DNA of 44,969 bases from Zoogloea ramigera (GTDB lineage: Bacteria; Pseudomonadota; Gammaproteobacteria; Burkholderiales; Rhodocyclaceae). Positions 34,844 through 40,471 of the stretch are shown here, piece after piece. Position 1 is the stretch's first letter, and each line of letters opens with the position of its first letter. Position numbers and translations under genes: made by a program. The notes under the pieces are model-generated. The model saw nothing but the letters and a program-made list of their open reading frames with translations. It did no database searches and was not told the origin of the DNA. The DNA lies in the NCBI RefSeq assembly GCF_006539865.1, contig NZ_BJNV01000042.1, forward strand, positions 1-44,969. The letters are read 5' to 3'.

Positions 34844-37800
34844 ATGTGCTCCGATCCCGCCTGCCCGGCCCCCCACGCTGCCGGCCCCGACGACAGCGCC
34901 GCCATCCGCATCCGCGGCGCCCGCCAGAACAACCTCAAGAACCTGTCCCTCGACATCCCCCACCACGAACTCGTGGTGGTGACCGGCGTGTCCGGCTCGG
35001 GCAAGAGCTCGCTGGTCTTCGACACCCTGTATGCCGAGGGGCAGCGCCGCTACGTCGAGACCTTCTCGCCCTACGCGCGGCAGTTCCTCGACCGCATGGA
35101 CAAGCCCCAGGTGGATCGCATCGAAGGCGTGCCGCCGGCCATCGCCATCGACCAGACCAACCCGGTGCGCACCTCGCGCTCGACGGTGGGCACGATGACC
35201 GAGCTCACCGACCACTTCAAGCTGCTCTACGCCCGGGCCGCGCGGCTGCATTGCCGCGGCTGCGGCCAGCCGGTGAAGCGCGACACGCCGGCCACGGTGT
35301 TCGCCGAGCTGTCGGCCCGCGCCGCCGCGGCCGGCGACCCGCGCCTGGTGGTGAGCTTTCCGGTTACGGTGCCGGGCAATTTCAGCGAGGACGAGATCAC
35401 CGAGCTGCTGGCCCGCCAGGGCTACACCCGCATCCACGCCCGCGACGGCAGCCTGCTGCATGTGGTGCAGGACCGCTTCCGCCTGGCCGGCGCCGAGCAC
35501 GCCCGGGTGATGGAGGCCCTCGAGACCGCCTTCGCCGCCGGCCACGGCCGCCTCAGCGTGCATGCCCTGGGCGACGGTGACGAAACCCGCTGGAAGTTCA
35601 GCACCGGCCTCCACTGCGCCGACTGCGACATCGCTTACGCCGAGCCCACGCCCAGCCTGTTCTCCTTCAACTCGCCCATCGGCGCCTGCGAAACCTGCCG
35701 CGGCTTCGGGCGGGTTATCGGCGTCGATTTCGGGCTGGTCATCCCCGACGAATCCAAGACCCTCGCCGAAGGCGCTGTCAAACCCTGGCAGAGCCCCAGC
35801 TTCAAGGAGTGCCAGGGCGATCTCGAGAAGATGGCCAAGAAGTACGGCGTGGCCATGGACATCCCTTTCCGCGACCTGCCGGCCGAGCACCGCCGCTGGT
35901 TGCTCGAAGGCGACGACAAGTGGAAGAACTGGGATTCGTCGTGGCCGCGCTACTGGTACGGCGTGCGCCACTTCTTCGACTGGCTAGAGAGCAAGGCCTA
36001 CAAGATGCACATCCGGGTGCTGCTGTCGCGCTACCGCAGCTACACCGAATGCCCGGCCTGCCACGGCGCCCGCCTCAAGCCCGATGCGCTGCTGTGGCGG
36101 CTGGGGAGTGGGGCGGTGGGAAGTAGGGAATGGGGAATGGGGGCGCAGGCTGACGCGTCCGCGCCTGACGATCGCCAGCGCACCGACGCCGAGCAAGGCC
36201 CACTTCCCACTTCCTGTTTCCCTCTCCCCATCCATCAGCTGATGGCCCGCCCCATCGACGAGATCACGCCCTTCGTCGCAGCCCTCGAGCTGCCCGCGCC
36301 GCTGGACGAAGCCACCGAGCTTCTTCTCGGCGAGATCCGCGGGCGCCTCAAGTACCTGCAGGACGTCGGCCTCGGCTACCTCACGCTGGATCGCCAGTCG
36401 CGCACCCTGTCGGGCGGCGAGGTGCAGCGCATCAACCTCACCACCGCGCTGGGCACCTCGCTGGTGAACACCCTGTTCGTGCTCGACGAGCCGTCCATCG
36501 GCCTCCATCCGCGCGACATCGGGCGCATCCTCGGGGTGATGGAGCGCCTGCGCGACGCCGGCAACTCGCTGGTCGTCGTCGAGCACGACCCGCAGCTGAT
36601 GCTCGCCGCCGACCGCCTGCTCGACATCGGCCCCGGCCCCGGCGAGCGCGGCGGCGAGATCGTCGCTTACGGTGCGCCCACCTCCATCGCCAATGATCCC
36701 GCCTCGCTCACCGGCGCCTACCTGGCCGGCCGCAAGCGCGTCGACACCCGCCGCCAGATGCGCCCGGTGGCCGCCGATGCGCCGCGCCTCAGCCTCACCG
36801 GCGCCCGCCAGCACAACCTGCAGGGCGTCGATCTGGCAATCCCGCTGCGGCGCCTGGTGGGTATCACCGGCGTGTCCGGCTCGGGCAAATCCACGCTGAT
36901 CCAGGACGTGTTGTTCCCGGCGCTGGCCAAGCACTTCGGCCAGCCGGCCGAGCCGCCCGGCGCCTTTGGCGGCCTCCTGGGCACCGAGCACATCAAGGGC
37001 GTCGTGATGGTGGACCAGTCGCCCATCGGCAAGAGCGCGCGCTCCAACCCGGTGAGCTACGTGGGTGCCTGGGACGCCATCCGCAAGCTCTTCGCCAACC
37101 TCGACGAGGCCAAGGAGCGCGGTTACACGCCGGGCACCTTCAGCTTCAACTCCGGCACCGGGCGCTGCCCCACCTGCACCGGCTCGGGCTTCGAGCACGT
37201 CGAGATGCAGTTTTTGTCGGACGTGTATCTGCGCTGCCCGGACTGCGACGGCAAGCGCTACCGGCCCGAGATCCTGGCCCTCGACTGGCGCGGCAAGTCG
37301 GTGGCCGACGTGCTCGAGATGACCGTCTCCGAGGCCCTGGCCTTCTTCGCCGATCAAAAGCCCGTGCTCGCCGCGCTGGCGCCGCTGGCCGACGTCGGCC
37401 TCGAATACCTGCGCCTCGGCCAGCCGGTGCCCACGCTCTCCGGAGGCGAGGCCCAGCGCCTCAAGCTCGCCGGCTACCTCGCCGAAGCCGCCCAGCTGGC
37501 GGCCAAGAAGTCGAAGAAGGGCGCGGTCGGCGCTGTGAGTGATGAGCCCGGCCTGCTCTTCCTGTTCGACGAGCCCACCACCGGCCTGCACTTCGAGGAT
37601 GTCGCCACGCTGCTGTCGGCCTTCGAGAAGCTGCTGGATGCCGGCCACTCGCTGGTCGTCATCGAGCACAACCTCGACGTGATCGCCGCCGCCGACTGGC
37701 TCGTCGACCTCGGCCCCGAGGGCGGCAGCGGCGGCGGGCAGATCGTCGCCGAAGGCACGCCGGCTCAGCTCGTCGCCACGCCGGCCTCCCAAACCGGGCG

Positions 37801-40471
37801 GGCCCTGGCCGACTACGCCGCCCAGCTCGCCGCGCTGCAGGCGGCGCCGGTGGTGGCCGAGCCGCCGGTGCGCTACCGGGCGGTGCCCGACCCGGCGATC
37901 ACCATCCGCCACGCCCGCCACCACAACCTGCAGAACGTCAGCCTGTCGATTCCGCGGGACCAGTTCACGGTGATCACCGGCCTGTCCGGCTCGGGCAAGT
38001 CCACGCTGGCCTTCGACATCGTGTTCGGCGAGGGCCAGCGGCGCTACCTGGAATCCCTCAACGCCTACGCCCGGCAGTTTGCCCAGCCCTCGGCGCGGCC
38101 CGACGTGGACGCCATCTTCGGCATCCCGCCCACCGTCGCCATCGAGCAGCGGGTCAGCCGCGGCGGGCGCAAGAGCACGGTGGGCACCCTCACCGAGATC
38201 CAGCCCTTCCTGCGCCTGCTCTACGTGAAGCTCGGCACCCAGTACTGCCCCGGCTGCGATGTGCCCGTCACGCCCCAGAGCTTCGAGGCCATCGTCGCCC
38301 AGATCATGCGCGAAGCGGCTGGCGAGTCGGTCGAGCTGCTGGCACCGCTGGTGGTGAACCGCAAGGGCCTGTACACCGACCTCGCCAAGTGGGCCCGCGG
38401 CAAGGGCTTCGAGCAGCTGCGCGTCGATGGCGACTACCTGCCCACCAAAAAGTGGCCGCGCCTCGACCGCTACAAGGAGCACAACATCGAGCTGCCGGTG
38501 GGCATGCTGGTGGTCGGCCCCGACACCGAAGCCGCCCTGCGCGAGCAGGTGCAGGCCGCGCTTGAGCACGGCAAGGGCGTGCTCAAGGTGAACCGCCTTG
38601 ACGCCCCCGGCGTGCCGCTGCTCACCCTGTCCACGCTGCGCGCCTGCCCCGACTGCGGCACCAGCTTCCCCGAGCCCGACCCGCGGCTGTTCTCCTACAA
38701 CGCCAAGCACGGCTGGTGCCCGGACTGCTACGGCACCGGCCTCAAGATCGCCGGCCGCGTCGAGAACCCCGACGAGCTCGATCTGGGCGAACTGGAGGCC
38801 GAAAGCGACGAAGCCTGCCCCAGCTGCCACGGCGCCCGCCTCAACCCGGTGGCCCGCGCGGTGCGCTTCCGCGACTTGGGACTGCACGAGCTCGCCTCGC
38901 TGCCGGTGGGCAAGGTGTCGGGCTTCTTCGGCGGCCTGCAGCTGGCCCACCGCGAGGCCGAGATCGGCCGCGACCTGGTGGCCGAGATCCGCGGTCGGCT
39001 CGATTTTCTGCAGCAGGTCGGCCTCGGCTACCTGGCCCTCGACCGCGCCGCGCCCACGCTGTCGGGTGGCGAGGCCCAGCGCATCCGGCTGGCGGCCCAG
39101 CTCGGCTCCAACCTCACCGGGGTGTGCTACATCCTCGACGAACCGACCATCGGCCTGCACCCGCGCGACAACCAGCTGCTGCTCGACACCCTGGAGGCCC
39201 TGCGCGGCCGCGGCAACACCCTGCTGGTGGTCGAGCACGATGAGGACACCATCCGCCGCGCCGACCACGTCATCGACCTCGGCCCCGGCGGCGGGGTGCG
39301 CGGCGGCCGGGTGGTGGCCGAAGGGCGCCTCGCCGACCTGATGGCGGCCCCCGAATCGGCCACCGGCCGCTGCCTGCTGGCGCCGCTGCAGCACCCGCTC
39401 GCCCCGCGCCGCGAGGTCAGCGACGATCACCCGGCGCTCATCGTCGAAGGCGCCACGCTGCACAACCTGAAGAACGTCACCGGCCGCGTGCCGCTGGGCC
39501 GGCTGACGGTGGTGACCGGCGTGTCCGGCTCGGGCAAGTCCACCTTCGCCCGCGACGTGCTGCATGCCAGCCTCGCCGCCGACGGCCCGGTGGGCTGCAC
39601 CCGGCTCGCCGGCCGCGAGCTGATCGGCCGCCTGCTCGAGGTGGACCAGACCCCCATCGGCAAGACGCCGCGCTCCTGCCCGGCCACCTACATCGGCTTC
39701 TGGGACGCCATCCGCAAGCTCTTCGCCGATACCAACGAGGCGAAGATCCGCGGCTGGACGGCCTCGCGCTTCTCCTTCAATACCGGCGCCGGGCGCTGCC
39801 CGGTGTGCGAGGGCCAGGGCCAGATCACCGTCGAGATGAATTTCCTGCCCGACGTCAAGCTCCCCTGCGAGGCCTGCGGCGGCGCCCGCTTCAACCCCGA
39901 GACCCTGGCCGTGCGCTGGAAGGGCAAGAGTGTCGCCGAGGTGCTGAACATGGCCGTCGAGGACGCGGTGGAGTTCTTTGCCGCCCACCCGTCCATCGCC
40001 CACCCGCTCAAGCTGTTGCAGGACGTGGGCCTCGGCTACCTCACCCTCGGCCAGCCCAGCCCGACGCTGTCGGGCGGCGAGGCCCAGCGCATCAAGCTGG
40101 TCTCCGAGCTGGCCAAGGTGCGCGGCCGGGCCGGTGAGTCGCCCAGCGGCCCGGGCCGCCCGCTGCCGCCCGAAAAGCACACTTTGTATGTGCTCGACGA
40201 GCCCACCGTCGGCCTCCACATGGCCGACGTGGAGAAGCTGATCCACGTGCTGCACCGCCTCGCCGCGGCCGGCCATACGGTGCTGGTCATCGAGCACGAC
40301 CTCGACCTGATGGCCGAGGCCGACTGGATCATCGACCTCGGCCCGGAGGGCGGCGACGGCGGCGGAGAGATCGTCGCCGAAGGGCCGCCGGAGGCGGTGG
40401 TGCAGGTGGCCCGCTCCCACACCGGGCGCATCCTCGGCGAGTTCCTGGCCGCCCGGCGGGCGGGCGGGTGA
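34844..40471 (+). CDS. uvrA: Tandem-fused UvrA-type excinuclease ATPase (double length)
   Basis: UvrA is the damage-recognition ATPase of nucleotide excision repair. A normal UvrA has about 940 residues and two ATP-binding domains; this product has 1875 residues and four. Walker A motifs ([32 protein letters not shown]) start near residues 47, 676, 1046 and 1558, each with an LSGGE signature further on ([40 protein letters not shown]). Both halves have CxxC zinc pairs ([55 protein letters not shown]). One protein may thus mimic a UvrA dimer. Long UvrA paralogues of this kind are known from other betaproteobacteria, so a standard uvrA probably exists elsewhere. Residues about 420-461 come from an in-frame palindromic insertion. 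A TACAAT at 34808-34813 is a possible -10. Confidence 0.93.
36102..36231. repeat. Palindromic repeat inserted in frame in uvrA
   Basis: The left arm (about 36102-36141, G-rich, with GGGAAGTAGGGAATGGGG) is the imperfect reverse complement of the right arm (about 36199-36231, C-rich, with CCCACTTCCCACTTCC). About 55 bp between them contain a smaller dyad around CGATCG. The element interrupts the normally continuous UvrA segment between LLWRLG and IHQLMARP, adds about 42 codons and has no stop in the uvrA frame. Composition and form are those of intergenic GGGAAGTGGG-type repeats, not of UvrA sequence. Confidence 0.75.

Follow-up and report, generated by a model that had tools for sequence, protein, structure and literature searches.

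A dispersed palindromic repeat lies in frame in uvrA of Zoogloea, in a loop that carries unrelated palindromes in other genera

The uvrA gene in the DNA analysed here (the window, 44,969 nt) contains, in frame, a palindromic repeat that is missing from sister species, and unrelated palindromes occupy the same loop in other genera. Selfish repeats seem to have entered this one UvrA loop repeatedly. We consider it likely that the insert stems from a dispersed family of non-coding palindromic repeats, one copy of which entered uvrA and was tolerated in a disordered loop of variable length. The interpretation of an earlier note on this DNA, which saw an intergenic-type palindrome inserted in frame into uvrA at 36102-36231, is supported, and the element was located within that range at 36104-36229. 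The unrelated palindromes in the same loop of other genera are an addition to it. The features are as follows.

34844..40471, + strand: uvrA, double-length (two fused UvrA halves), 1875 aa; from the open reading frame, NCBIfam and Pfam
36050..36076, + strand: CPACHGARL, second CxxC pair of the first UvrA half; from direct reading and alignment to solved UvrA structures
36104..36229, + strand: in-frame palindromic element of 42 codons; missing in G005, G007 and 14 other Zoogloea loops, with a homologue in G003 and G014
36104..36143, + strand: 5' arm of degenerate G-rich heptads (GGGNANT type); from sequence reading
36161..36182, + strand: core palindrome, GCGCCTGACGATCGCCAGCGCA in this copy, TGCGCTGRCGATCGYCAGCGCA in better copies elsewhere; from comparison of copies
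36173-36183, + strand: half-core CGCCAGCGCAC; from sequence reading
36199..36229, + strand: 3' arm of C-rich inverted heptads; from sequence reading and fold

NCBIfam UvrA models match both halves of the product of 34844-40471, in which Pfam finds the domains UvrA_inter, UvrA_DNA-bind and ABC_tran. The double-length model PRK00635 scores 1107.9 bits and stays under its cut-off of 3054 bits. The insert begins 27 nt after the end of CPACHGARL (36076) and is flanked by the LLWRL codons upstream, which end at 36103, and by IHQLMARP downstream. Solved single-length UvrAs have a short turn at this place, VGGKHI in 2r6f, right after the CPxCxGxRL motif. The place had been thought continuous in UvrA proteins, which does not hold for the double-length type, as the double-length UvrAs of many other genera have about 35 residues there and the closest outgroup read, G031, has 73. 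A structure model of a 419-residue fragment is poor overall (mean pLDDT 66.5, pTM 0.39), its PDB matches are UvrAs, and it gives pLDDT below 50 at fragment residues 182-209, where the insert spans 179-220 with short strands on either side. The earlier suggestion of a loop behind CPACHGARL agrees with this low-confidence part of the model. We read the insert place as a turn within a beta-hairpin, disordered and variable in length, situated between the second CxxC pair and the first-half ABC signature. Elsewhere in the window, about ten 21-bp units (16-232, consensus CTCGGAGCGTCGACATCGACC, 77% matches) lie at the contig end, directly downstream of a gene at 310-1770 on the minus strand that we take to be gatB-like.

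The insert is 126 nt long, stop-free in the frame that is used and with three stops in one other frame. Such a stop-free frame is not rare in these elements; 40 of 90 frames are open in 15 paired elements. The claim of about 42 added residues without a stop holds for the 42 stop-free codons, but eight residues of the nearest relatives, G005 and G007, are replaced and the net gain is 34 codons. With 10 nt of flank per side, the insert folds at -75 kcal/mol (z -2.78), a value that 2 of 200 shuffles equal. Its gapped self-complementarity is matched by 1 of 500 codon shuffles and by none of 500 base shuffles. The ungapped inverted-repeat score is 9, and 6 for the related insert of G003. The window insert is a real yet imperfect palindrome and, being below the threshold of 13 for strong loops, it is left out of the strong-loop count given below. 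A search of Rfam with the insert returned chance-level matches far under the gathering scores. A consensus RNA structure was also considered and rejected: across elements, changes occur on both sides in 7 of 15 predicted pairs, the consensus fold is weak (-9.4 kcal/mol) and the covariation term of +0.43 gives no net support, so no RNA structure is claimed.

The insert belongs to a dispersed repeat family with GGGNART heptad arms and a palindromic core. In the home genome (G000, 4.6 Mb in 207 contigs), the pattern GGGNANTGGGNANTGGG has 110 matches versus 4 for the reversed control. Among 38 arrays in 34 loci, a sample biased to strong arrays from which a degenerate genic array elsewhere could escape, 37 fall between predicted genes and the uvrA array is the sole one inside a gene. 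Genes were called here by a simple codon score trained on the window's uvrA, and inside means at least 45 nt from both gene ends; some other arrays overlap ends by up to 34 nt. Same-direction genes flank 24 arrays, convergent genes 4 and divergent genes 4; 5 arrays lie at contig edges, and 1 lies in uvrA. The expectation of many, mostly intergenic copies was therefore confirmed.

The heptad unit is GGGNA(A/G)T, with some GGGGATT and GGGGACT units, and the G-arm precedes the C-arm in all paired arrays. Between the arms, a palindromic core near TGCGCTGRCGATCGYCAGCGCA is common to copies in five genomes; 32 copies of the half-core CGCCAGCGCAC were counted in the home genome, seven of them in or beside arrays. 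Paired elements measure 46-268 bp. By eye they have no fixed end, and TAG is found within heptads only; REPs of the REP/RAYT system, for comparison, are stem-loops of 20-40 bp tagged with GTAG or CGTC at one end and go with a Y1 transposase. In uvrA, the insert takes the place of 24 nt of the empty site and does not duplicate a target; MITEs are marked by target-site duplication and by terminal inverted repeats of an IS. At E 1e-5, Y1_Tnp has two matches in G003 and one in G014, and none in G000, G005 and G007, which are drafts and may miss it. Where arrays overlap gene ends, a GGGTAG unit seems to provide the stop codon (L017 and L002; G000 C53:28680 and C7:166823). C-rich arms end about 3-15 bp from predicted start codons at G000 C87:3757, C6:116825, C2:128188 and others, which leaves little space for a usual ribosome-binding site.

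Within Zoogloea, the insert is found in 3 of the 19 loops read (G000, G003 and G014), and the other 16 hold eight residues instead, as had been predicted for homologues without the segment. In G005 and G007 they read PVATGALA and PAATGALA. The 8-codon state can be aligned in all 16 loops and is nearly identical in G007 and G018. Outside its own locus, the G000 insert finds its best match in the uvrA insert of G003 (71.6 bits, 89% over 54 nt), and the next best match, elsewhere, reaches 55.4 bits. The cores of G000 and G003 are 89% alike, about the same as the flanking gene with 88.4%. Between G003 and G014, 82 of 107 aligned bases of the insert are equal and the indels sum to zero, with flanks 93.7% equal. 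In G014 both arms are of the GAGG type and complementary; in G003 only the 5' arm is of that type. The fold has -67.7 kcal/mol in G014 and -45.7 kcal/mol in G003, whose insert has much of the pairing lost. A segment conserved in homologues at the amino-acid level had been named as evidence against an insertion. Two congeners do carry a homologue, but the amino-acid sequence of the insert peptide is not conserved among the Zoogloea carriers.

The strict heptad pattern is present in 5 of 23 genomes of the genus (G000, G003, G005, G007 and G014). The TGAGGAG variant of the G003 and G014 inserts has 2 and 0 matches in these two genomes, while matches are more numerous in G005 and G013. The arm type is thus no simple function of the host. 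The heptad unit seems to turn over between Zoogloea species. GAGGNGT arrays were seen as different heptad units in other Zoogloea genomes (G013, G002 and G005). The arms appear to change jointly, perhaps because one arm is copied onto its partner, or through slippage.

On the uvrA tree, G000 is placed beside G005 and G007, and G003 and G014 are found apart. A single clade of the Zoogloea carriers is rejected (AU p 2.8e-105), and grouping the five heptad-rich genomes together is only weakly rejected (p 0.038). Since the carriers are not one clade, two arrivals, exchange, or loss must be part of their history. The carriers have in common three sites in the 81 nt downstream of the insert, at which G005, G007 and 11 or more of the 13 others differ, and the remaining flank of about 1800 positions has one more such site. 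This pattern, noticed post hoc, would point to allele exchange. A single insertion in Zoogloea followed by precise losses was considered and is less favoured; an excision would have to rebuild the eight codons, near letter-identical in G007 and G018. From these alignments we tentatively prefer arrival by replacement with exchange, or two arrivals, over one insertion with losses.

The loop was read in 230 loci, which comprise 30 loci of a first search, 80 named records and 120 family loci, the latter from 148 matching non-Zoogloea genomes among 395 searched in the family. Cutting was done by script for 215 loops and by hand for 15. Of the 204 distinct script-cut loops, 31 reach an ungapped inverted-repeat score of at least 13. 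As a control, 5250 windows of 105 nt or more were taken from other parts of these genes, and 15 of them score as high (Fisher p 1.8e-34; the set covers script-cut loops). A run of N accounts for one of these control hits, and some of the rest (L111, L149, L333) resemble real repeats elsewhere in uvrA. Including the hand-read loops, 36 of 219 are strong, compared with 9 of 6750 codon-shuffled sequences, for which 135 loops of at least 45 nt were shuffled. Below the threshold and outside these counts are the two Zoogloea inserts scored above and an Accumulibacter (g76) loop with a score of 11. Carriers are frequent in some genera, with 10 of 19 loci in genus g72 and 10 of 16 in g68 (Aromatoleum). 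On a tree of 147 rows, at least 14 state changes are required for 35 carriers; this tree is a quick one in which 36 of 144 inner branches are open, and the carriers L031, L032 and L283 were added by hand. None of the 120 fetched family loci has a stop or frameshift in the loop (L313 is cut by a contig end within it).

By eye, the loop repeats were sorted into nine types: the GGAGCGGC REP, GGGGWCAGA palindromes, the Aromatoleum GCCGCCGACG type, a CCCTCTCCC or PLPPGEG type, the Zoogloea heptads, GCGACGGACG, and three single cases, one of which has 36-bp arms (L111, Burkholderiaceae). L298, L300 and L313 were typed by a translated motif, and their scored arms are another sequence. Within types that have several members, matches reach 62 to 404 bits. 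The best matches between types are 40.1 bits (20 nt), 36.2 bits (22 nt) and 28.2 bits, followed by values of at most 24.3 bits; the two above 30 bits we take to be shared remnants of the loop. L268, from the Aromatoleum genus, matches two types, with a GGGGACAGACC palindrome and 20 nt common with GCCGCCGACG-type loops, and this locus may perhaps record successive insertions.

Among the types other than the Zoogloea heptads, genome-wide dispersal was tested for the GGAGCGGC REP alone. G234, a one-contig genome of 3.87 Mb, contains 121 exact copies of GGAGCGGCNNNAGCCGCGA versus 0 of the reversed control. The first 30 of the 121 hits fall into 16 sites, of which 14 lie between predicted genes and two are genic, both in uvrA. 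One of these two sites is the first-half loop. The other is the stretch between the UvrA halves (L341, about 86097), which is REP-derived and in-frame.

These observations are most simply explained by tolerance within a disordered loop. Repeats would land more or less anywhere, and most genic insertions would be lost. In the loop, judged from the sequences, insertions that keep the frame could survive and would be translated as a floppy linker. The loop would then act as a permissive landing pad, in which selection holds the frame and its openness and not the sequence. Attraction to the site or a use of the insert is possible. We regard it as rather unlikely, if worth keeping in mind, that the first-half loop is a true hot spot, in which unrelated mobile palindromes of many betaproteobacterial genera are kept beyond chance tolerance, with a second pad between the halves in G234. 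Insertion might then be attracted by, for example, a pausing or single-stranded spot; alternatively, a hairpin at the loop position in the message or gene might help UvrA.

A rival proposal is that the insert is useful, with an mRNA or DNA hairpin or a G-quadruplex that slows transcription or translation, or with a peptide that tunes UvrA, so that the palindrome itself is selected. The recurrence of unrelated palindromes at one place would fit this, as would the complementary GAGG-type arms retained in G014 and the two-sided changes in the predicted pairs. The available text of Di Nocera et al. (PMC3733652) also speculates on mutation rates being altered by REPs that lie in repair genes. However, the palindrome is missing in 183 of 219 loops, and even in the rich genera g72 and g68 only about half of the loci carry it. 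Pairing is much reduced in G003, and joint changes of the arms are also expected from arm-to-arm copying. We therefore hold a selected palindrome to be improbable. That no insertion took place, and that an ancestral linker of about 35 residues drifted to low complexity, is suggested by the linker lengths in other genera and in the outgroup G031. This is very improbable, as the insert DNA shares arms and core with the dispersed family and most Zoogloea loops have the alignable, in part near-identical 8-codon state.

Many of the genomes are drafts, a good number of them metagenome-assembled, which leaves a slight chance of a pseudogene or an assembly artefact; this reading has hardly any credibility given the open frame of 1875 aa, the related inserts in two further genomes, and in-frame palindromes also in complete one-contig genomes such as G234. 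A hairpin at the junction might finally suggest that the segment is transcribed yet missing from the protein, by translational bypass or excision. Such a step would be superfluous for an insert that is stop-free and a multiple of three, and we give it the least weight of all. Toleration of a repeat copy in the loop remains our favoured reading.

By definition, bacterial palindromic repeats are extragenic, and those found in frame are regarded as scattered curiosities. The Zoogloea insert adds a new member to a known phenomenon, and the surprising part is the recurrent colonisation of one loop. An earlier report of repeated colonisation of one UvrA loop by unrelated repeats was not found in the open-access literature. 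This loop of a repair protein has been entered by several or more unrelated repeat types, across many genera and in sparse as well as rich genomes, and represents a natural experiment that could address tolerance versus attraction at coding sites, the turnover of insertions and the effect of a translated repeat on a repair enzyme. For annotation it is a warning not to take low-complexity peptides in UvrA, which come from repeat DNA, for domains.

The available sections of Rehm et al. 2015 (PMC4692102) describe G-rich heptamer repeats of Xanthomonas and Nostoc, GGGNATC or GGGGA(C/T)T, as tandem 7-nt units, mostly intergenic and often near gene ends. In Xanthomonas, many form convergent (inverted) pairs. 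Intragenic copies are rare, with 7-11%, and G-quadruplex formation in vitro is a further trait of these repeats. The Zoogloea repeats are similar in their tandem 7-nt G-rich units, their many intergenic copies and their frequent G-then-C pairs. They differ from what these sections report in the genus, slightly in the unit (GGGNART) and in one copy that lies in frame deep in a gene. The shared palindromic core between the Zoogloea arms was not seen described there for the heptamers. From the text at hand, the heptad arms fit these heptamer repeats better than the Rickettsia palindromic elements (RPEs), which had been brought up for comparison. RPEs are described, in the accessible parts of PMC2229807 and PMC3733652, as palindromic repeats of about 105-146 bp that occur in frame in conserved protein genes and between genes. 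The likeness stands as an analogy, namely a palindromic repeat translated in frame inside a gene, but not as membership: sequence and arms appear to differ, the host is Zoogloea-like and not a member of the Rickettsiales, and 1 of 38 arrays lies in a gene. As far as those parts go, RPEs enter many genes of one genus, whereas here unrelated repeats enter one loop of one gene in many genera.

The closest precedent for a repeat inside uvrA is Di Nocera et al. 2013 (PMC3733652), whose available text reports REPs within coding sequences, prominently those of DNA repair genes such as uvrA and uvrB. Thauera is listed there with in-gene REPs, the uvrA cases come from Opitutus terrae and Thioalkalivibrio, and recB of two Xanthomonas species was entered at about the same site. 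With the exception of recB, the REPs described hit the same functional class at different sites. Compared with these cases, as far as they are set out in that text, several element types here reuse one uvrA loop across the family.
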